A stretch of DNA of 64,000 nucleotides, taken from contig CP073341.1 of the NCBI GenBank assembly GCA_018141785.1, positions 3,689,422 to 3,753,421 on the forward strand, in the 5' to 3' direction. This DNA is from Candidatus Paraprochloron terpiosi LD05. Lineage in GTDB: Bacteria; Cyanobacteriota; Cyanobacteriia; Cyanobacteriales; Prochloraceae. Below, piece by piece: positions 37,995 through 53,908 of this stretch (positions are counted from its first letter, which is position 1; the number at the start of each line of letters is the position of its first letter). The notes beneath the pieces are model-generated. The model saw only the letters and a program-made list of their open reading frames with translations. It was not told the origin of the DNA and searched no databases. The translations under genes were made by a program, and so were the position numbers.

Positions 37995-38408
37995 TTAATT
38001 GACCATACCACCAGCAGCTTGAAAGCGAGCTCTGGCCCGCTTAAAATCTTGAGTGGCTTGAATTAACTCTTGGCGGTTGTCCCCTGTACTTACCTGATCG
38101 AGGTGCTTTTGGGCGCTCTCAAACTCAGTCCGAGCCGCTTCTTTGTCGATGCTCTCTCCTGCTTCAGCGCCATTTACCAAGACTTTCACCTCATTATCTT
38201 CCACTTCCGCAAATCCCCCCATGAGAGCGATCGCCTGCCAGTCTTTTCCTGGACGAATTCTCATTACCCCCGTATCTAGGGCTGTTAATAGAGGAGCGTG
38301 ACCTGTCAGAATCCCTAGCTGTCCGGTAGTACTGGGTAGAACAATTTCTTCTACACTATCATCCCAGACTGTCTTATCTGGGGTAATCACCCGCAAAGTT
38401 AAAGTCAT
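37995..38408 (-). CDS. atpC: ATP synthase F1 epsilon subunit
   Basis: A 137-residue epsilon subunit, which links the rotor to the catalytic head and inhibits ATP hydrolysis. The N-terminal beta-sandwich ([40 protein letters not shown]) and the C-terminal two-helix region are intact. It follows atpD on the same strand, the cyanobacterial atpBE order. The 116-bp spacer contains a dispersed repeat (CACTGGTTACTGGTCACTG). Confidence 0.96.
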
Positions 38409-38524
38409 TTTGTGATGTTTTAGTTTTTTCTTGTTTGTTACTCGTTCACCAGGGACTCACTTCCTTCCTGGGGTTGAAACCCCAGGCTATTGGTCACTGG
38501 TTACTGGTCACTGATAACTGTCAA

Positions 38525-40279
<1,755 letters not shown>

Positions 40280-41557
40280 ATGGGTCACACAGCGCTTAGT
40301 TTATTCTGCGGAGCAGGAGGCTGCTCGTTAGGTTTTAAGCAAGCAGGCTACGAAATTTTATTGGCTTCTGACATTGATAAGGCAGCTATCAGTAGCTACA
40401 GGACGAATTTCCCTGAGACTAATTGTATACAAGCAGATATACGCCATTTAGACTTTAATAAGATACTCCGACGCCTAGGTTTAGTTGTTGGAGAACTGGA
40501 CATTCTGATTGGTGGACCCCCATGTCAAGGATTTTCCACAGCAGGTCTAAGATTTTGGAATGATCCAAGAAATTCCCTTCTCAAGCAATATATTTACGCT
40601 CTTCAGACTATCAAACCGAAATGGTTCCTTATGGAAAATGTGGAGGGATTATTAACCTCCGACAAAGGGAGATATATTTACGAAGCAGTAAAAGCTTTTA
40701 TTGAATGGGGCTATCAAATCAGAATTGAAAAAGTTTATGCTCAAGAATATGGTGTTCCCCAAAGACGGAAAAGAGTTTTGATATTAGGAAATCGATTAGG
40801 TATTGATTTCAAATTTCCAGAACCTAAAATAGGAGCCTATGGAAAAATATTTCGATACTCCGATGTGACGTTGAGGCATACTATAACTGGTCTCCCAAAG
40901 CCATCTGATAGTAATCAAGAAAAACTTGTTTATACTTCACCCGCGATGAGTTCATGGGAAAAATATTTACGAGGCACAGCTAGGGAAGTTACAGAGCATT
41001 TTTTACCAAATATGACCGATTTACAGCTTAGGAGAATTAGATCACTGAAATCAGGTCAAACCATGAAAGATTTGCCAATTGATTTACAGCATGAGTCCTT
41101 TAAAAAACGGGCAAATAGACGAGTTATGGATGGCATGTCTACTGAAAAAAGAGGCGGCCCACCTTCAGGATTAAAACGTTTATTTTTTGATGAACCTTCT
41201 TTAACAATTACTGGGGCAGCAACAAGAGAGTTTATTCATCCTGATGAGGATCGTCCATTAACAATCAGAGAAGCAGCTAGAATTCAAAGCTTTCCAGATG
41301 ATTTTCTATTTTCTGGTACTTCCTCAGTAAAAATACAGCAAATAGGAAATGCTATCCCCCCGTTAATTTCATATATAGTCGCAAAACATATCAGAGATGA
41401 ATATGGATTTGAGCAAGGAAAGAATATCCCAGGAAAGTTACTGGGTTTTACCCTTACTAAGGCAAATGCTATGAGTCCAGCACTTAAGATTACTGAAAAA
41501 CTATTGTATGCTCTACTAGAAGTGAATCAAAGCAAGCAAATGACTCTATTAGGTTAA
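40280..41557 (+). CDS. DNA (cytosine-5-)-methyltransferase of a type II restriction-modification system
   Basis: A 425-residue m5C methyltransferase with the canonical motif order: I, LFCGAGGCSLGF (residues 8-19); IV, GGPPCQGFS with catalytic cysteine (about 78-86); VI, MENVEGLL; VIII, QRRKRVLILG; X, IQQIGNAIPP near the C-terminus. The variable target-recognition region lies between VIII and IX. The endonuclease gene follows 3 bp downstream, so the pair is a type II operon that protects and restricts the same site. Confidence 0.95.
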   Translation: MGHTALSLFCGAGGCSLGFKQAGYEILLASDIDKAAISSYRTNFPETNCIQADIRHLDFNKILRRLGLVVGELDILIGGPPCQGFSTAGLRFWNDPRNSLLKQYIYALQTIKPKWFLMENVEGLLTSDKGRYIYEAVKAFIEWGYQIRIEKVYAQEYGVPQRRKRVLILGNRLGIDFKFPEPKIGAYGKIFRYSDVTLRHTITGLPKPSDSNQEKLVYTSPAMSSWEKYLRGTAREVTEHFLPNMTDLQLRRIRSLKSGQTMKDLPIDLQHESFKKRANRRVMDGMSTEKRGGPPSGLKRLFFDEPSLTITGAATREFIHPDEDRPLTIREAARIQSFPDDFLFSGTSSVKIQQIGNAIPPLISYIVAKHIRDEYGFEQGKNIPGKLLGFTLTKANAMSPALKITEKLLYALLEVNQSKQMTLLG

Positions 41558-41560
41558 ATC

Positions 41561-42589
41561 ATGGCATCAGTTTTTATTAAGACTATATTCGCAAAGTGTA
41601 AGATGCATGGAAATGGCGATTCCCAAGTCACGATTTCTGATTCAGAGGTATACGCCCTAATCTGTATGGCAACTTGTGATTTAGGTTGGTCCTATCAAGA
41701 ACTAGGTATTATACCGGTTGATTTGCCCAGTTCAAATTACTACGAAATCGACCTCAATTGGTTTGAGCAGATAAAATTTAAAGATTTGAGCGCCGATCTA
41801 ATTTTAGATTCGCTGCGTTCGTGTATTGAAAAAGATAATGATTTCTCCCTATATATCGAAAATTTTTCAGCTTTACACAGAAAGAGAGCTAAATATAAGC
41901 GTATCTTGTCTCAACAACCATTACCCAACATGGAACAGATTGCTCCAAGGGTTTTATTAGAGTATGGATGTTGTGATGTGAAGCTTTTGGCAAATTGGAT
42001 GATTTGGCGCAAATGGATTTATGACATTGATAATCGATCTGCTCAAGAAACAGGGTACTTGTTTGAGCCAGTTATTGCCAGTTGTTTAGGTGGAAAGTCA
42101 ATAGGAGCAAGAAACTCTCCCATTAAGAGATTAGACTCGGAAGGACAGCCAACCCTGAAAGGACGACAAGTGGACTGCCTTATCCCAGCAAACAAAACTG
42201 CTTATGAACTCAAATTGCGTGTAACAATTGCTGCTAGTGGTCAGGGGAGGTTTGGCGAAGAACTGTCTTTTCCTAGAGAAAGTCAGGCTGCTGGTTATCG
42301 TCCTATATTACTTGTTCTTGATCCAACCCCATCTGCCCGTTTAACAAAACTTTCTGATGCGTTCCTCAAGTGTGGAGGAGAATTTTACCAAGGTGAAGAT
42401 GCTTGGAATCATATGAAACAGCAAGCAGGAAGCGTTATATCCGTATTCATCGAGAAATATATTAAGCCTGCTATTCAAGATATTGAATCTGTTAACATTA
42501 CAAATATTCAATCACTAACATTGAGTTGGAATGACGATAAAGTGGTGATTGATAATCAAGAGGATATCTATTCAATAGGCAGGCTGTAA
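41561..42589 (+). CDS. Type II restriction endonuclease, probably ApaLI-like
   Basis: A 342-residue protein directly after the methyltransferase. GRQVDCLIPANKTAYELKLR (about residues 202-221) is a PD-(D/E)XK site with D, E and K. The following TIAASGQGRFGEELSFPRE and LLVLDPTPSARL recall the ApaLI-like endonuclease family, whose prototype cuts GTGCAC. Recognition of that site here is an inference. The methyltransferase-endonuclease coupling strongly supports a restriction role. Confidence 0.8.
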   Translation: MASVFIKTIFAKCKMHGNGDSQVTISDSEVYALICMATCDLGWSYQELGIIPVDLPSSNYYEIDLNWFEQIKFKDLSADLILDSLRSCIEKDNDFSLYIENFSALHRKRAKYKRILSQQPLPNMEQIAPRVLLEYGCCDVKLLANWMIWRKWIYDIDNRSAQETGYLFEPVIASCLGGKSIGARNSPIKRLDSEGQPTLKGRQVDCLIPANKTAYELKLRVTIAASGQGRFGEELSFPRESQAAGYRPILLVLDPTPSARLTKLSDAFLKCGGEFYQGEDAWNHMKQQAGSVISVFIEKYIKPAIQDIESVNITNIQSLTLSWNDDKVVIDNQEDIYSIGRL

Positions 42590-42675
42590 AGAATGTGAAC
42601 ATTGGTATCACGCCGCTGACCTTGAAGCCTTTAGAGACTAAATCGCAGCTGCTATTGGACAAACGAATCACACAA

Positions 42676-42703
42676 CCTGCACCGGATGGCTGGGCGTTTA
42701 ACG
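42676..42703. repeat. Partial attC-like arm
   Basis: CTGCACCGGATGGCTGGGCG then TTTAACG resembles the arm at 50290-50310 (GCACCGGACGGCTTGGCG then ATAAC). GTTTAAC fits the RYYYAAC core of integron attC sites, but no partner arm is seen nearby. Confidence 0.35.
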
Positions 42704-42773
42704 CAATATGTTATATGGTCAGAAAGATTGGAAAATTATTAGACTAAATATATCAAGTGAGGTAGTATAGATC

Positions 42774-43470
42774 ATGTCACCCTTTAATCAAATTAAACTT
42801 ATATTATTTTCTCAACATGGAATGACAGATGATAACAGAGCAATGTGCTCCCTAGCTCACAAGGTAGCTCCACCTCAATCCTGTGTTATTGGGCCAAATT
42901 TGGGATTTATCCAAACTATGAATCAAGATTGAGCCTCTTATTAGCAAAGTTGAGGAAACCGCCGAGCAAGCATTTAAGCAGTATCCTGATACCCCAGCTC
43001 GAATCATTGCCACTTCACTGGGAGGTGTCATCTGGGTAGAAATATTATCTAGACATCCAGAGTGGTGGAAGCGGTTTGAGTCTTTAGTGTTGCTAGGTTC
43101 TCCTATCGGTGGTGCAGATTTGGCTAAAATTATTGACCCCTTTGGTTGGGGTATGGGAATAGCAAAACCCCTTGGTAAAAGTCGTCGGCTCCTAGCAGAA
43201 CAAATTACCGCTGTCATTCCCACATTGGTAGTAGCTGGGAATACCACAGGTGGAGGAGATGGTACTGTCTCAATTGAGTCTACTAAGCTAAAACACGCTC
43301 ATTTTGTTTGTTTGGACGGTGTAACTCATCGTGGACTGAGAACGCATCCTGCTATTGTTAAAGTGATTCAAGAATTTTGGTCACAGCCCAGAGAACCACT
43401 ACCTGCGCCAAGAGGTCTAATTTCAGAATTGATAGAGCATTCAGCTGCCAGGTATTACCGATGGGAGTGA
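42774..43470 (+). pseudogene. Alpha/beta-hydrolase, frameshifted
   Basis: ATG 42774 starts a frame reading FNQIKLILFSQHGMTDDNRA and more, stopping at TGA about 42930. The rest continues in another frame: IEPLISKVEETAEQAF, then RIIATSLGGVIWVEILSRHP with the nucleophile elbow as SLGG, LLGSPIGGADLAKI, and AGNTTGGGDGTVS with the acid, then the histidine in LDGVTHRGLRTHP. One indel near 42925-42935 accounts for it. Similar lipase-like hydrolases occur in cyanobacteria. It is probably inactive. Confidence 0.75.
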
Positions 43471-43666
43471 GCGAGATTTTCCCAAAGCAACAACTCTATT
43501 TTCCTTTGCAGATGGAACTAGCATCCGAACTTGGACAAATCTAGTGGGTGTTAAACATGTATTTATTGCTAACAGGCATGGAAAATGTGAATATGCAGCT
43601 ATGGAAGGCTGGATACACTCTACTAGTCTCCAACAGGCAATAGATGTAGCAATAAAATCGTTTTAA
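43445..43666 (+). pseudogene. Unidentified fragment after the hydrolase
   Basis: Another frame from about 43445 to TAA 43666 encodes about 73 residues (ITDGSERDFPKATTLFSFAD, then GVKHVFIANRHGKCEYAAME) with no start codon of its own. It overlaps the hydrolase end, so it may be a second domain or a separate gene that lost its 5' end. The family is not recognised. Confidence 0.4.
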
Positions 43667-43679
43667 GGTTAAGTTGCTG

Positions 43680-44828
43680 TTAGGAGTCTTGGAAAATAGC
43701 CAAATACGGCTCATAAGAAAAAGCCCGATTTCGCTTGTGTCCAGTGTTTTCTTTTAGAAGACCTATGTCCCCAAGCTTCTCAATTAAAGTGTTTGCATTG
43801 GGATATGACAATTTAGTAATTCCTTGAGCATGTTTTACAGTAAAGATGGGTTTGAAGTAGAGGCTCTCAAGCAATGTAATTGCATTACCGGATCTACGTC
43901 CCATTTTCTTGAGTACCAATTTGCGATGTTCCTCTTTCAGATTGACTATTTTACGAGCAGTAGCCGCAGCTTCCTGAGCAACTTCGTGGACACCACGTAG
44001 AAAGAATTTCAGCCAACCCTCCCAGTTACCACTGTCCCGAACAGCCTGAAGGCGATCGTAGTATTCAGCGCGATATTTCAAGAAATAGTAAGAAATGTAG
44101 AGTAAAGGGCGCTGTAGTATGTTTTGTTCACACAACAGAAATGTAATTAATAATCGTCCTGTTCTTCCATTGCCATCAAGAAAAGGATGAATTGTTTCAA
44201 ACTGAGCATGAGCTAATCCAACTTTGATTAAGGTAGGCATAGGCTGTGGCCCGTGCAAAAACTTCTCCAAATTATCTAGAGATTGGAGCATTTCATGAGG
44301 TGGTGGAGGAACATAAGTAGCCTCTGCCAGAGAACATCCTCCAGCGCCAATCCAATTTTGGGTACGACGAAACTCGCCCGGATTACGTTCAGCGCCTCTC
44401 ACTCCTTTCATTAACTCTTGGTGAATCTCTCGAATTAATCGCAAGGATACAGGCAAGTTTTTGAGACGTTTAAGACCATAATTAATCGCAGCAATATAGT
44501 TGACAACCTCAGCTACCTCCTGCGGGTTGTCCGGCTCTAAAGCCTGAGACTCCAATTCTAGAACATCTATTAAAGATGCTTGTGTGCCTTCAATCTGGCT
44601 TGATAGAACTGCTTCTTTCCGAACATACATAAACACAAACAGATCTGGATTTGGTAATGCATCGGTTACTCCGTCTAAACGACCCAATGCACGATCTGCC
44701 TTAGACAGCAGGTTCCACATTTCCTGATCCATAATAATTTCAGGTGTTGGTGGCAGTGTATTAGGTATAAAAGCCTTGTATCCCTCTATTTGTTGTACAT
44801 ATTGACCTGCTCTGGGCATACTGACCAC
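43680..44828 (-). CDS. Fic-family protein (putative AMPylase)
   Basis: A 382-residue protein. The Fic catalytic motif is intact: HPFLDGNGRTGR near residue 213. An N-terminal autoinhibitory motif SSQIEGTQ near residue 75 fits the S-x3-E-G consensus of class II Fic proteins, which keep themselves off until relieved. A C-terminal winged-helix region (FTVKHAQGITKLSYPNANTL) follows. Starts at 44828 or 44819 are both possible. It is the only gene on the minus strand in this part of the defence island. Confidence 0.9.
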   Translation of the reverse strand: MVSMPRAGQYVQQIEGYKAFIPNTLPPTPEIIMDQEMWNLLSKADRALGRLDGVTDALPNPDLFVFMYVRKEAVLSSQIEGTQASLIDVLELESQALEPDNPQEVAEVVNYIAAINYGLKRLKNLPVSLRLIREIHQELMKGVRGAERNPGEFRRTQNWIGAGGCSLAEATYVPPPPHEMLQSLDNLEKFLHGPQPMPTLIKVGLAHAQFETIHPFLDGNGRTGRLLITFLLCEQNILQRPLLYISYYFLKYRAEYYDRLQAVRDSGNWEGWLKFFLRGVHEVAQEAAATARKIVNLKEEHRKLVLKKMGRRSGNAITLLESLYFKPIFTVKHAQGITKLSYPNANTLIEKLGDIGLLKENTGHKRNRAFSYEPYLAIFQDS

Positions 44829-44930
44829 TATTATCGGTTCCGTTAATACTGAATAGCCTTTGACTCTATATTATCAAAAATAGCCCCTTTTCGTTAATAA
44901 GCGATTTTGGATCCGGTAGATCGGCCAGAT

Positions 44931-45155
44931 CCCAAGTTAGGCTACCCAGTACCAGGGTAATAACTTACTGTCCATGGGTTATCATGCTAGATGTACGACA
45001 AGACCATTCTCACCATAAGGATAATGCTGTCATCCTAGCACCAGGGGGAAGGGACTTGCACCCTCACGGTTATTCAGTTGTCAAGGTTCTCACCTTGACA
45101 TCCGTCCCTGAGTAGGTTAAACTCATGATAGATGAACTAATTACCCAAATCATAG
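44931..45155 (-). repeat. Intron-like repeat, copy R1
   Basis: Shares long blocks with R2 (47268-47512) and R3 (49550-49654). Read on the minus strand it contains TTGACAACTGAATAACC and GGGTGCAAGTCCC, resembling domain I of the intact group II intron (TGACAACTGAAT at 11362-11373). It lacks the internal hairpin around GATGTGAAAG present in R2 and R5. Confidence 0.65.
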
Positions 45156-45157
45156 TA

Positions 45158-47101
45158 ATGGCCAACAGCAGCAAAACACAACTTGGATATTTTATAAATT
45201 ATGATCTTTGGCAAGATGCTTTGGAGCTTTTAAAGTTTCAGATAAAGCAGAAACAAACTAACAGGCATTTTAATACTCTCAGCATGTTTTACTATGAAAA
45301 ACTTGATGCAAAGCGTCCAGCTGGAAAAAACTACTACAACATAAAGATATCTAGCAGCCTTTTTTACGGATTAAAGAAAGAATTTGCTATTTTCTCATAT
45401 GTTATACCAAAGCCTGGTCTTGGATTAAGAGATTATAAATTTTTCACTTACCCGATGAGGATTGTCTACTACGCTGTTGGGCTTTATTTACTTAAGCTTT
45501 CGCAAGAGTTTTTAATTGAGACTTATAAAAAAATTAAAAGTATCAAGGCTTTCTACGGTGGCAATCTCAATTATAAGTCTGGAAGACTTCACCTCAGTTC
45601 TAAAAACATTTACTATCGTAGTTTTTACAAGGATTATCAATCAGAAATTAAAAAAGAAACAAAATCGAGGACTCAAGACACAGTGGTTCTGAAGTTTGAT
45701 ATTGAAAATTACTTTAATGAATTATCAGTTCCTAGGTTACTTGATCTACTAAATCGTTTTATCAAGCCCAGTGTTAAAGCCAACATGGTTTACGATACTT
45801 TCACAAGAGAACAAATTATTTGCCTGTTCCAATTTATTTCTAATGGCAAGCCTGGAATCCCTCAGTCAGATAATGACGTTATTTCGGATTTTATTGGATA
45901 TCTTTATTTAGTTTTTGGAGATATGTTTATCGATGATTTACTAAAAAACGAAGACCACCAAGACATTATCGACTCACATAAGATTATTAGATATGTGGAC
46001 GACATAGATATTTTTATAACGTTCAAGCAAAATATTAATCAAGAATCTCAAGGTTTATTTATTCATTCAGTCGCTTCCCAAATCGCTGATATTTTGTATA
46101 ACGAACTTGGTCTTAAACTTAACATGAAAACTAGACTCTATCGTTTGTCGAAAGAAGACGAAAAAGAAGAATTTCTTAAGAATATTCGCAAATCATCACT
46201 TGGGGATGAATATTTTAGTGTTATTCAGAAAGATAATCAGAAAGAAGAAAAACCTCAAAATAAGTTGAATAAAATATTTAGAGAGCTGGAAAAGATAAAA
46301 AACTCTAGGGTAGAAGATTACTTTATGAGAGATAATTCAGTGCAAAAAGAAATTCTTCAAGAAGTATTTGATAAGACTGTAGAGCAAATCTTAGATAAGC
46401 CAGAAAACACAAACGAGATTAAAGAAATTTTCAAAAATTTCAATTTCGATCTCGTCAAAGTTCAACCTCTCGAAATATTGATTATATTACTGAAAGATGA
46501 GACTATTACTAATGAATTTAGAAAATTTTGCTTAGATAAAACTATCATTACCACAGGTGATGCCAACTTAATTATTAAGTTCTTATGTCAAACCAATTTT
46601 AGTGACAAAAAACTTCTTGACAAGCTCAAGAAAAATGTTCATATGAGTAACATTGTCGATATATTTTTGAGTAGAAAGCTTAATTATTATGAACCTGGAT
46701 ATTACAACTTGACTAGTACAAAGATAAAGAAGCTGTCAGCGATGCCTGATGTGTTAGAACAGATTCGATTGCGGATTTTGAGTGAGAGAAGTCAATCTTA
46801 TTCAGTTGCGCTTAATCATTTAGTTAATGAAATCCATGCTGTTTGCATGAACCTGGATACACTAAATAATAATAAGAATGAGAATAAGAAGAATTATAAT
46901 GTTAATGATGTAGTTAATTTTTGGCAATCAAAAGGCATCCGGCATGAAATATGTATAAAGGTAAGAAACTTATTTGATCGGAGAAACTCAAATAGCATTT
47001 CTCATCCAAGTTCTGATAGACGTCTTGCTTGGGAAGTTACTAAAGAGGAATATCTAGATTATTATGACCATGTTGGACAGTGTTTGGATTTTCTCTTATG
47101 A
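45158..47101 (+). CDS. AbiA-like abortive-infection reverse transcriptase with C-terminal HEPN motif
   Basis: A 647-residue protein. RT motifs: A, VVLKFDIENYFNEL (about residues 176-189); B, GIPQSDNDVISDFIG (about 231-245); C, RYVDDIDIF with YVDD near 278; D, LGLKLNMKTRLY. A long alpha-helical middle part follows. The C-terminus holds RNSNSISH (residues 609-616), an R-x6-H motif of HEPN RNase domains. This layout matches AbiA of lactococci and related defence RTs. The start at 45158 is preferred because the in-frame 45125 start lies inside repeat R1, also seen at 49624. The gene is very A/T-rich. It has no cognate second gene. Confidence 0.82.
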   Translation: MANSSKTQLGYFINYDLWQDALELLKFQIKQKQTNRHFNTLSMFYYEKLDAKRPAGKNYYNIKISSSLFYGLKKEFAIFSYVIPKPGLGLRDYKFFTYPMRIVYYAVGLYLLKLSQEFLIETYKKIKSIKAFYGGNLNYKSGRLHLSSKNIYYRSFYKDYQSEIKKETKSRTQDTVVLKFDIENYFNELSVPRLLDLLNRFIKPSVKANMVYDTFTREQIICLFQFISNGKPGIPQSDNDVISDFIGYLYLVFGDMFIDDLLKNEDHQDIIDSHKIIRYVDDIDIFITFKQNINQESQGLFIHSVASQIADILYNELGLKLNMKTRLYRLSKEDEKEEFLKNIRKSSLGDEYFSVIQKDNQKEEKPQNKLNKIFRELEKIKNSRVEDYFMRDNSVQKEILQEVFDKTVEQILDKPENTNEIKEIFKNFNFDLVKVQPLEILIILLKDETITNEFRKFCLDKTIITTGDANLIIKFLCQTNFSDKKLLDKLKKNVHMSNIVDIFLSRKLNYYEPGYYNLTSTKIKKLSAMPDVLEQIRLRILSERSQSYSVALNHLVNEIHAVCMNLDTLNNNKNENKKNYNVNDVVNFWQSKGIRHEICIKVRNLFDRRNSNSISHPSSDRRLAWEVTKEEYLDYYDHVGQCLDFLL

Positions 47102-47267
47102 CAACTCGTTCGGGTTATTGAGTCCCCGGTCAATGCAATCAGGCTTGGTAAGTTTAGTTGAGGTAGTAAATCCAACATAGGATGATGCTTTCTGCCAGGT
47201 TTATGCAGTCATGACAGTTCTGACACAATTTTGCTTTCGCTCTCCCTAAACCCATGCTCGGCGTCCT

Positions 47268-47512
47268 CCCAAGTTAGGCTACCCAGTTACCATTTGGTTC
47301 ATCACTTACTGCCAATGTAGGCGTCCTCAGTGACTTTTTTACATGGGGACAGGGGGAGAGAATCCCCTGGAAGAGACGGAACCTCATTCTGCCCATGGGT
47401 TATCATGCTAGATGTACGACTTTCACATCGCACAGGACCATTCTCTACCGTAAGGGTAATACTGTCATCCTAGCACCAGGGGGAAGGGATTTGCACCCTC
47501 ACGGTTATTCAG
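47268..47512 (-). repeat. Intron-like repeat, copy R2 (longest)
   Basis: About 245 bp. On the minus strand it forms a stem TGCTAGGATG/CATCTAGCA enclosing ACAG/CTGT and TGCGA/TCGTA hairpins. It separates the RT gene from the ATPase-TOPRIM pair. It partly overlaps the spurious 5' extension of the ATPase frame (47395-47562). Confidence 0.65.
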
Positions 47513-47562
47513 AAGTTAACCTGCTCCAAGTGGTCTTGTCTTTTTCAAATTTAAATTTTACT

Positions 47563-48624
47563 ATGAAAGTTCAGTCTGTTCAGTTAAAGTATTTTAAGCG
47601 ATTTCGGAATCCTCCGACCTTCGATTTCACCGATCCAGAAACCGGATTAGCAAGAGATCTCATAGTTTTGATAGGAATGAATGGTGCAGGAAAAACAAGT
47701 CTCCTCCAGGCTATTGCTGCAACACTAGGGGTAGCTACGGGACGGTTGCAAAGGCTCCCTGACTTGGAGTGGGCAGGATTTAATTATGAGCTTTTAGGAA
47801 GCAACTGGGGAGGATTTGCACCAGAAGTCACTCTAAAGGTACAATTTTCGTCTCCAGAAATTCAAGCAGTTCAAGAATTCCAGCAGAAATTGAAAGATAG
47901 GGGACGGGATTTACATCCTCCTGCACAGGAGCACATTGTGACTCTCAACTGGCGAGATGAGAGGGTTATAGCGGGTACTGCGGCTGAATTGTTTCAATTT
48001 AAAGGACGAGAATACGCTAAACAACTACTCCGCTCTGAAGGCTTCCAGGCTTTTGAGCGAGTTGGCACAACCCTTTGGTATACCGAGCAGAGAACTTCAA
48101 CCAGTCTAACCACAGAAGACCAACAAAACAAACTTGAAATCACAGATGATATCTTGCGAGATCGATTGTCCAAATGGCGGCAGTTTCATCAAGATATTGC
48201 AACAGGTAAAATTAAGCACCTACGTCCAGGGCAGAAGGACTTATATGCCGAAATAGAACGAGTCTACAAAACTATTTTCCCAGAGCGTAGTTTTGAAGGA
48301 CCTGTCCTACGAGAGGAAATTGATGACATTCTAAGTGAGCCTTGGTTTTATCTCTACGATGGTAAAAACCAGTATGAGATTTCCGAGATGTCAGGAGGTG
48401 AACGTGCTACCTTTCCAATACTAATGGACTTTGCTAGTTGGAATATTCATAATTCGGTCATCTTGATTGATGAAATTGAGTTGCACTTACATCCACCAAT
48501 GCAACAGGCATTATTAGCAGCTCTACCTAAGTTAGGTAAAAATAATCAATTCATCATTACAACTCACTCGGATTATGTGGAGAAACTGGTACCTGAAGCA
48601 TATGTTGTTCGGCTAGAGGTGTGA
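47563..48624 (+). CDS. AriA-like AAA ATPase of a PARIS-type defence system
   Basis: A 353-residue ATPase from the ATG at 47563. Walker A is GMNGAGKTS (about residues 38-46), the ABC-like signature is MSGGERATF (about 275-283), and Walker B is VILIDEIELHLHP (about 300-312) with THSDY as the H-loop. The partner at 48627 is a TOPRIM/DUF4435 protein, the arrangement of PARIS (AriA plus AriB), where the ATPase cage senses phage anti-restriction proteins and releases the toxic nuclease. OLD-type pairs are the main alternative. Confidence 0.75.
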   Translation: MKVQSVQLKYFKRFRNPPTFDFTDPETGLARDLIVLIGMNGAGKTSLLQAIAATLGVATGRLQRLPDLEWAGFNYELLGSNWGGFAPEVTLKVQFSSPEIQAVQEFQQKLKDRGRDLHPPAQEHIVTLNWRDERVIAGTAAELFQFKGREYAKQLLRSEGFQAFERVGTTLWYTEQRTSTSLTTEDQQNKLEITDDILRDRLSKWRQFHQDIATGKIKHLRPGQKDLYAEIERVYKTIFPERSFEGPVLREEIDDILSEPWFYLYDGKNQYEISEMSGGERATFPILMDFASWNIHNSVILIDEIELHLHPPMQQALLAALPKLGKNNQFIITTHSDYVEKLVPEAYVVRLEV

Positions 48625-48626
48625 TT

Positions 48627-49532
48627 ATGAGTGTTGTTAGTGGTGGAAGAACGATTTTTTGCGAGGGAAGGCAAACTAGCCTAGACTATAGGTTACTTAG
48701 CAGAGTAGTCGAGGGCATATCAGGTGATAAATGCACAATTATTCCTGCGGGCAGCAAGTTTACATTTTCCATTTTTGCACAAGGTTACTTCTTTCCCAAT
48801 GAGGTAAGAAACCAGCGATACATCGTTTTTCGCGATCACTAAGAGTGGCGCTTACGCGATCGGGATTTTGATGCTCAACCAACCCCTAGCATTCAATTAC
48901 TTCAACTGGAAAACAGATCAGGTAATCTATCTATTGCTTTGACCTATCGTGCTTGTGTTGAGAACTATCTTTTAGACACTAATTTAATTCATGCCTATTG
49001 GACAGAAAAATACACAGAGAAACGAGACAATCCTATCTCTAAGTGGGGGCATGGGGATTCACCTGGATTGGAAACGATTGCAGCATGGATTGAAACCAGT
49101 GCAAGAAATTTACAGTTCTATCAAGCTGTAAGATGGGCATTGGGTGATTTGTTGAGCATGAGGGCAGCACGGGAACTAAAAACCACTTGGACAGGTGGTG
49201 GTGGTAAGTTGCCTAAATCATTAGACTTACAAGACTGCCAGCAACAAGCATTAGCATTAGTCGCTCGATTTAAACAGACAGTTGAATCAGTTACACCAGA
49301 AAAGTTTGAAGCAAGTCTTAATTCATATCAAAAGCGTTTTATTGAGGAAAATTTTTGGACACAAAAACAGTACTTGATTTGGTTTCATGGAAAAGACCTT
49401 CAAAAGGAAATGCAGAGGCAGAAACCTCACTATATTTCTCTGTCTTCGTTTTTTGACTGGGCAATTACTCGGATTGACATTACTCAGCATTCCGATCTTA
49501 TACAGCTCAGAACAAGAATGGAGGAGCTATAG
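48627..49532 (+). pseudogene. AriB-like DUF4435/TOPRIM protein, interrupted by a 24-bp insertion with a stop
   Basis: A single frame of 302 codons. TOPRIM motifs are TIFCEGRQTSLDYRLLSRVV (catalytic glutamate) and IVFRD-RDFDAQPTPS (D-x-D). Between the two last a 24-bp insertion (48838-48861) brings TAA at 48840-48842. Its removal gives IVFRDRDFD. After the stop the frame continues with YRACVENYLLDTNLI and on to 49532, fitting DUF4435 proteins. The system is probably inactive here, although the ATPase frame is intact and without its effector should be harmless. Confidence 0.78.
48838..48861. repeat. 24-bp insertion bounded by CGCGATC duplications
   Basis: CGCGATC at 48831-48837 is repeated at 48855-48861, with ACTAAGAGTGGCGCTTA between. 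CGCGATC is part of the HIP1-like sequence, suggesting a slip or small-palindrome insertion at that site. Confidence 0.7.
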
Positions 49533-49549
49533 TTTAGTCTCTATTAATA

Positions 49550-49654
49550 GGACTTGCACCCTCACGGTTATTCAGTTGTCAGCGGTTCTCACCTTGCCAT
49601 CCGTCCCTGAGTCTGCTAGACTCATGATAGATAAACAAATTACCCAAATCATAG
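49550..49654 (-). repeat. Intron-like repeat, copy R3
   Basis: About 105 bp nearly identical to 45050-45155 of R1, including the ATGATAGAT and TTACCCAAATCATAG sequences that also form the 5' extension of the RT frame. It separates the PARIS-like pair from the next toxin-antitoxin module. Confidence 0.75.
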
Positions 49655-49660
49655 CCAACT

Positions 49661-50089
49661 ATGACTAAAAACAAGAAAGCATCCTCAAGCGATATTAGAT
49701 CGAAGGCGGCAAAAATTCTCAAGGATCCGAAGACTTCTCAGATTCAAAAGAAACTGGCTGGATCAGCTCTTTCACAGTCCGATCCTAATAAGCAGACTGG
49801 TTCCGAAATGGAAGAGATCGCGGCTCAAGTTCTTCAAGGTAACAGATATAGCGACACTACCAAAAGTTTAGCTGGATCTGTACTATCACAGGCTGCTATT
49901 CAACGGTTGCCAGACGGCGACATCAGAGAACTTACAACTCGTCCACAGGCTTATTTAGACGATATGTGGGATCGGCAACTAGAATCTGACTTAGAATCAG
50001 GAAAGCTAGATACCCTGATTGCCAGAGCAGAAAAGGATATTGCTACCAATCGAGTGAGGGATCTGGATGAAGTCCTTTACAACCTCTGA
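49661..50089 (+). CDS. Antitoxin-like protein with an internal repeat
   Basis: A 142-residue protein. Two similar units of about 30 residues occur: KAAKILKDPKTSQIQKKLAG with SALSQSD, and EEIAAQVLQGNRYSDTTKSL with AGSVLSQAA. The C-terminus (RQLESDLESGKLDTLIARAE) resembles toxin-neutralising tails. It overlaps the toxin fragment by 23 nt. It probably acts as antitoxin in this pair; the N-terminal units have no clear family. Confidence 0.55.
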   Translation: MTKNKKASSSDIRSKAAKILKDPKTSQIQKKLAGSALSQSDPNKQTGSEMEEIAAQVLQGNRYSDTTKSLAGSVLSQAAIQRLPDGDIRELTTRPQAYLDDMWDRQLESDLESGKLDTLIARAEKDIATNRVRDLDEVLYNL

Positions 50090-50261
50090 TTTTTGGCGCG
50101 CTTACGCAGTACTTCCTCATGCTATCAAGGAACAAGCACGAAAAGCTTATGAACTCTGGCAGGAGAATCAATCTCATCCATCATTGCATTTTAAGAAAGT
50201 GTATCAGCCTGATTTCACTGGTTCGGCAGTCACGACAGTTTTACCCCACTTTACAAATTGA
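50067..50261 (+). pseudogene. ParE/RelE-like toxin, C-terminally truncated
   Basis: The first ~45 residues (FTTSDFWRAYAVLPHAIKEQ, ARKAYELWQENQSHPSLHFKKV) are typical of RelE/ParE toxins, up to the point where a conserved YSVRIGxxYRALG strand should follow. Here it reads YQPDFTGSAVTTVLPHFTN and stops, right before repeat R4. The toxin core is lost while the antitoxin is kept. Confidence 0.7.
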
Positions 50262-53379: not shown

Positions 53380-53908
53380 AAAAAGTCATGTTATATTGGT
53401 AGCAGCCTCGGAAGCCAGGCGTGGAATGCCTAATCACCAAGTTTTGCCTTTATATGCTGGAAATATGAGCGCAAACCTTGCTCAAAATCAAACAAAGAGC
53501 GGTGAGTTATAAACTAACCGCATTGGGAGAGAGCCACCGGAACTGGATTATTTCAGTAGTGCATTGGTTAGCAAGTGTTAATATTTGTCAACTAAAATCT
53601 ATCGGCTCCTCATTCTGTGCATGGGTTACCATGCTAGATGTACGACTTTCACATCGCACAAGACCATCCTCTACCGTAGGGGTAATGTTGTAACCTCAGC
53701 ACCAAATGCATTTGTGTTTTTCGTACATATCCGATACTAGATTCAGTCAGGAGTAAAAATGGATTCTTCTATTCTAAACAACGTAATGTAAGACTTGGGT
53801 AAGTATGGTCTTACTTCCCTGCTCAAGTCACTTAAGTCGGTTGAGAGTTCCTCTCCTCAGAGAAACGAGATAGCTTATTAACTAAATATCAGTTCAAGCT
53901 TAATAAAA
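53380..53908. other. Gene-poor spacer with inverted repeats and R5
   Basis: 529 bp. It has an inverted pair CTAACC (53514-53519)/GGTTAG (53566-53571) about 50 bp apart and the fifth repeat copy at 53610-53703. Small ORFs here (to 53512 and 53693) show no coding pattern. Confidence 0.5.
53610..53703 (-). repeat. Intron-like repeat, copy R5
   Basis: About 94 bp, close to 47389-47480 of R2. Its ACAA/TTGT stem replaces ACAG/CTGT of R2 with pairing kept. Confidence 0.65.

Follow-up and report, generated by a model that had tools for sequence, protein, structure and literature searches.

The Abi polymerase AbiA of Lactococcus lactis (pTR2030; structure 8OZ7) is the closest described counterpart of the protein considered here. 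It forms a dimer via its HEPN domain and performs protein-primed synthesis of random single-stranded DNA, for which Tyr298 (or Tyr303) in a flexible loop serves as the primer (PMC11077055). Defence was abolished by D240N and by Y298F/Y303F, and deletion of the HEPN domain abolished polymerase activity (PMC11077055). AbiK (7R07) and Abi-P2 (7R08) resemble AbiA in the reverse transcriptase (RT) palm, in a helical domain standing in place of the thumb and in protein-primed, untemplated DNA synthesis; they differ from it in lacking a HEPN domain and in forming trimers or hexamers instead of dimers (PMC11077055). DRT2, DRT3 and DRT9 (DRT / UG) are defence RTs with a related palm as well, but they need a non-coding RNA or a second gene. 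The palm fold is also shared by group II intron RTs.

We analysed a 64,000-nucleotide stretch of Candidatus Paraprochloron terpiosi LD05 (contig CP073341.1), hereafter the window, in which an earlier reading, made from the sequence alone, had pointed at an AbiA-like RT with a HEPN motif as a single-gene defence system. The encoded protein shares with L. lactis AbiA the predicted order of three domains, the RYVDD and RN.N..SH motifs and the single-gene organisation, and both are matched by the same NCBIfam and PADLOC models. It differs in being only 23% identical, in a longer linker between RT and helical domains and in its chromosomal rather than plasmid-borne gene; furthermore, the alignment of the two priming tyrosines is uncertain. 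An intact and divergent AbiA is thereby added from outside Firmicutes.

Gene, family and domain layout

The longest reading of the open reading frame runs uninterrupted from an ATG at 45125 to the stop at 47101 and comprises 658 amino acids. The start at 45158 (647 amino acids), which had been chosen in the sequence-only reading, is better than ATG 45125, since close homologues all begin with M(T)xxxKTQLGYF and a promoter-like site ends 2 nt before ATG 45125. Residues are numbered below after the 647-residue protein. The gene and its parts are as follows:

45095 to 45123, forward strand: promoter-like site of sigma-70 type, TTGACA-N17-TAAACT, before abiA, a consensus match only, with 10 of 12 consensus positions matched, joint best of the region
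45158 to 47101, forward strand: abiA, coding for a 647-residue AbiA-family reverse transcriptase-like DNA polymerase (TIGR04499, PADLOC AbiA, Foldseek to 8oz7 chains A-D)
45158 to 46186, forward strand: RT-like domain made up of fingers and palm (residues 1-343)
45698 to 45700, forward strand: catalytic Asp D181 in motif A, LKFDIENYF, unchanged in every full-length homologue, L. lactis AbiA included
45854 to 45877, forward strand: motif B, GIPQSDND, residues 233-240, read as GIPQ(S/G)DN in close cyanobacterial relatives
45992 to 46003, forward strand: motif C, YVDD, residues 279-282, with RYxDD invariant in full-length homologues
46187 to 46399, forward strand: flexible linker region, residues 344-414, with pLDDT below 50, containing Tyr352 (46211-46213)
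46253 to 46747, forward strand: predicted helical (alpha-solenoid) domain, approximately residues 366-530, all-helical in the model, its counterpart being the helical domain of 8OZ7 (PMC11077055)
46748 to 47098, forward strand: HEPN-type C-terminal domain, approximately residues 531-647, covered by TIGR04499, with four main helices in a separate model
46982 to 47005, forward strand: HEPN R-X6-H motif RNSNSISH, residues 609-616, in which R, N, N, S and H are invariant down to RNSNPVSH (581-588) of L. lactis AbiA

The NCBIfam AbiA profile TIGR04499 matched the protein with 474.2 bits (cut-off 250; 7e-142) over profile positions 1-615 of 615, reaching residue 654 of 658 in the numbering of the longest frame. 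Search against defence-RT profiles, which had been proposed earlier as a check, returned PADLOC AbiA models at 1e-84 and 2e-20. The protein is hence a full-length member of the AbiA family and not merely AbiA-like. For comparison, a Lactococcus AbiA found on plasmid pUCCL629C scored 706 bits with TIGR04499, and its length (628 amino acids), RNSNPVSH at 581 and tyrosines 27, 130, 134, 298, 303 and 363 agreed with published L. lactis AbiA; the identity of 23% given above refers to this copy.

All motifs named in the sequence-only reading are present (RT motifs, GIPQSDND, YVDD and RNSNSISH), with the numbering of R609 and H616 exact. They are not chance occurrences, because TIGR04499 spans the whole protein and RNxNxxSH falls within the most conserved C-terminal stretch of every homologue. 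The palm residues D181 and R278-Y279-V280-D281-D282 are intact. It should be added that most of the close cyanobacterial relatives (L031, L037, L025, L026, L032) carry YTDD, whereas YVDD is found in the window protein and L. lactis AbiA.

An AlphaFold2 model of the full chain, built from an 11-row alignment, was of moderate quality (mean pLDDT 66, pTM 0.52), with pLDDT of about 65-89 over most of the RT-like domain. Its comparison with the PDB by Foldseek placed the four chains (A-D) of 8OZ7 at ranks 1-4 (E 3e-13 to 2e-12), followed by DRT9 and Abi-P2 near 2e-7; the matches to AbiK and Abi-P2 were several orders of magnitude weaker. The sequence search of the PDB missed 8OZ7, which is too divergent, and it was recovered by the fold search alone. 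The TM score to 8oz7 over the whole chain was 0.38, a low value that is probably due to poor placement of domains in the model. The region after the RT is all-helical in the model (confidence about 45-80) and is covered by the AbiA profile; what had been described earlier as a long helical insert would correspond to the helical (alpha-solenoid) domain typical of Abi polymerases. To our knowledge, such a domain replaces the thumb in all Abi polymerases.

The separate model of residues 515-647 was weak (pLDDT 58) and produced no significant Foldseek match. The best of its non-significant matches was the HEPN protein 2hsb, and the others listed, mostly HEPN domains, included HepT toxins, sacsin HEPN, Csx1 and 8OZ7. 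As the AbiA profile also extends over the C-terminus, these weak matches make a HEPN fold the best reading of the predicted domain.

The protein might alternatively have been a group II intron or retron RT. Weak matches to RVT_1 and to group II RTs do exist and are confined to residues 1-343; moreover, abiA has group II intron-like repeats on both sides, and RTs of group II introns abound in this genome. Nevertheless, the group II RT model scored 34.4 bits, far below its cut-off of 300, compared with 474 against 250 for the AbiA model. The protein has neither a maturase nor an HNH domain, Rfam gave no match to a group II RNA in the vicinity of abiA, retrons ranked far below AbiA in Foldseek and no retron model appeared among the listed profile matches. 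With both profile scores and the best structural match pointing to AbiA, the identity as a group II or retron RT was rejected, its probability being next to nil.

Conservation, distribution and mode of action

The search of 386 genomes of the phylum revealed three, including that of the window, with a protein above the family cut-off, and two further genomes carrying a second, divergent AbiA lineage. Scattered cyanobacteria hold relatives with 51-76% identity, five of them intact; copies are known from Sphaerospermopsis kisseleviana (76%), Microcystis wesenbergii (74%) and Symploca (51%), and an AbiA lineage of 25% identity is present in Pleurocapsa and Snowella. No AbiA copies were found in phages (tblastn) or viral contigs (scans), and the search of plasmids returned weak matches to Firmicutes RTs, including Lactococcus AbiA at E 0.3.

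Each copy was set among different, unrelated genes. Comparison of 1.5 kb of flanking DNA on both sides of the cyanobacterial abiA genes revealed no conserved non-coding RNA or promoter; the sole match was a 56-nt piece downstream of two loci, about 1.2 kb away from abiA at one locus and 250 nt away at the second; it is probably a dispersed repeat. Unrelated neighbours in every homologue and the lack of conserved flanking DNA, with no sign of a required RNA or partner, support the single-gene system proposed earlier and set AbiA apart from DRT2, DRT3 and DRT9.

Metagenome-assembled genome records titled Chloroflexaceae or Chloroflexi (L041 = G390:C303, L035 and L036) also carry AbiA of the cyanobacterial type. 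GTDB places at least the genome of L041 (G390) in the order of the window organism, and the title of this record looks wrong; on account of this placement, the Chloroflexi labels provide no evidence of spread to Chloroflexi.

Across eight full-length proteins, representing two cyanobacterial lineages and L. lactis AbiA and aligned with L-INS-i, 29 residues were invariant, down to 23% identity. D181, R278, Y279, D281 and D282 are among them, and P235 is the sole residue of motif B to be kept down to L. lactis AbiA. The eight positions of the HEPN motif account for as many as 5 of the 29 (hypergeometric P 6.5e-6). Comparison of so divergent a relative with the solved L. lactis enzyme singles out two conserved elements, the catalytic site of the polymerase and the R-X6-H motif of HEPN.

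Purifying selection acts on abiA: when it is compared with its closest orthologue (dS 1.0), dN/dS is 0.13; dS was saturated or nearly so in most other pairs. This bears on the view that the gene has lost its function and is decaying. Many relatives do carry broken copies: that of Scytonema hyalinum (L032) is split, that of Leptolyngbya (L034) ends early and reads YTDA, the Chloroflexi-labelled L035 and L036 are truncated or interrupted near transposase-like open reading frames, and G390 holds one frameshifted copy along with one remnant. Furthermore, a gene of the ATPase pair just downstream of abiA in the window has an in-frame stop. The window copy, however, is open over 647 codons and retains all catalytic residues, which together with its dN/dS renders decay very unlikely.

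A tyrosine at the position of Tyr352 is kept in all aligned cyanobacterial copies and in the Chloroflexi-labelled L035. It stands 26 residues after KTR, compared with 17 residues between KTK and Tyr298 in L. lactis AbiA, and alignment programs disagree on the pairing of these two tyrosines. By position, Tyr352 is most likely the priming tyrosine equivalent to Tyr298.

The window protein most probably works in the manner of L. lactis AbiA. We infer DNA synthesis, priming, dimerisation and defence by homology from the L. lactis work, as this 23% identical enzyme is the only tested member. Two copies would dimerise through their HEPN domains, and the palm (D181, D281, D282) would attach the first nucleotide to a tyrosine of the linker, most likely Tyr352. 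Extension would then yield random single-stranded DNA independently of a template or a separate primer, and this synthesis would block phage multiplication, with the HEPN domain acting mainly as dimeriser and structural support.

The sequence-only reading had assigned to the HEPN domain a second, toxic RNase activity. In its strongest form, the polymerase would be a sensor or activator and HEPN the real RNase, arresting or killing the infected cell. HEPN domains carrying the R-X6-H motif are usually RNases (PMC3710099), and here the motif is complete, with five of its eight positions invariant, in excess over the rest of the protein. On the other hand, no RNA cleavage by L. lactis AbiA was seen on any of several substrates, full protection was retained by both single mutants (R581A and H588A) as well as by their combination, and no clear cell death of abortive type was observed (PMC11077055); the conserved residues may be structural, located at the HEPN dimer interface. 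A toxic RNase thus found no support in the tested homologue, and we regard this alternative as rather improbable. Of similarly low probability is that HEPN in AbiA is a conditional RNase, activated solely by certain phages or by the DNA attached to the protein. Such a role would account for motif residues R, N, N, S and H being kept as strictly as the polymerase site though R and H were dispensable in the published assay. If so, the cyanobacterial branch could show RNase activity openly. The comparison with L. lactis AbiA sharpens the question as to why a motif apparently dispensable for L. lactis defence remains invariant.

It had also been stated that such a cyanobacterial example had not been studied. 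This holds insofar as our literature search found no paper testing a cyanobacterial AbiA copy; AbiA itself and its HEPN domain are, however, well described and the structure is solved. The cyanobacterial copies fall inside existing database models, and the novelty is therefore limited to a divergent cyanobacterial member, an ordinary but well-preserved representative of a known family.

Genomic surroundings of abiA

The gene is located in a strain-variable block, accompanied by a set of repeats:

42604 to 50149, strand not applicable: strain-variable block with a Fic gene, abiA, an ATPase pair and a small open reading frame, absent from a genome of the same genus (G387)
44921 to 45091, reverse strand: first repeat copy, located before abiA and antisense to it, resembling group II introns in part, with matches to dispersed sites
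47258 to 47526, reverse strand: second repeat copy, downstream of abiA
49550 to 49654 and 53603 to 53704: further repeat pieces

The flanking repeats had been taken for group II intron-like sequences. The repeats are real, and a part of 37-51 nt recurs with 86-92% identity at some 25 other genomic sites; of four such sites inspected, three (L004, L005, L007) lie upstream of open reading frames for group II intron RTs and one (L008) has none nearby. The intron-like character has no support from Rfam, where the search of the repeats gave no match to group II RNA models. The repeats resemble short group II intron fragments and are not part of the defence system. Segment 45052-45155 is duplicated at 49550-49654 (91% identity, 104-105 nt), including the promoter-like site and the leader start MID.ITQII. 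The two copies stand before abiA and before the small gene pair 49661-50261, respectively. The idea of cassettes, in which every repeat would announce a defence gene, was abandoned, as the repeats are degenerate fragments of intron-like character and parts of them recur at other genomic sites.

Across the whole genome (3.84 Mb), the model for group II intron RTs has 139 matches, 80 of them above 250 bits; one of the RT frames downstream of the inspected repeat sites (P0001) scored 211 bits with TIGR04416. The load of group II introns per megabase looks exceptional. A 24,270-residue open frame at G000:C1:3200003 turned out to be an artefact of masked N sequence.

In G387, window position 42603 is joined directly to 50150. 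The order there is window 38002-42603 (95% identical), 43 bases of window 50150-50192, an HTH-type open reading frame and then window 53936 onward. The block is present in one genome and absent from the other, which is compatible with insertion as well as deletion. At this site, a second relative (G386) carries an internally deleted Fic gene alongside other genes. The block adjoins atpB/atpE and is near a methyltransferase and a candidate restriction enzyme; the segment 38002-42603 shared with G387 comprises the atp genes, this C5-methyltransferase and the candidate restriction enzyme. Within the block, the Fic gene is SoFic-like (2e-125) and a PtuA/AriA-like ATPase is encoded at 47563-48624. 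The block is likely a defence hot spot differing between genomes of one genus.

Directly after the ATPase gene, the open reading frame 48621-49532 is interrupted by an in-frame TAA (48840-48842); beside this stop lies a short segment with the repeated sequence CGCGATC at its borders. Read across the stop, it had no Pfam or PADLOC match in a search for a PARIS-like AriB. Possibly, the two genes are a defence pair of ATPase and effector with a broken second gene. Outside the block, at 40280-42589, a C5-cytosine methyltransferase gene is followed by an open reading frame with a weak match to ApaLI-like restriction endonucleases, and both are conserved in the genome of the same genus; they likely form a type II restriction-modification pair.
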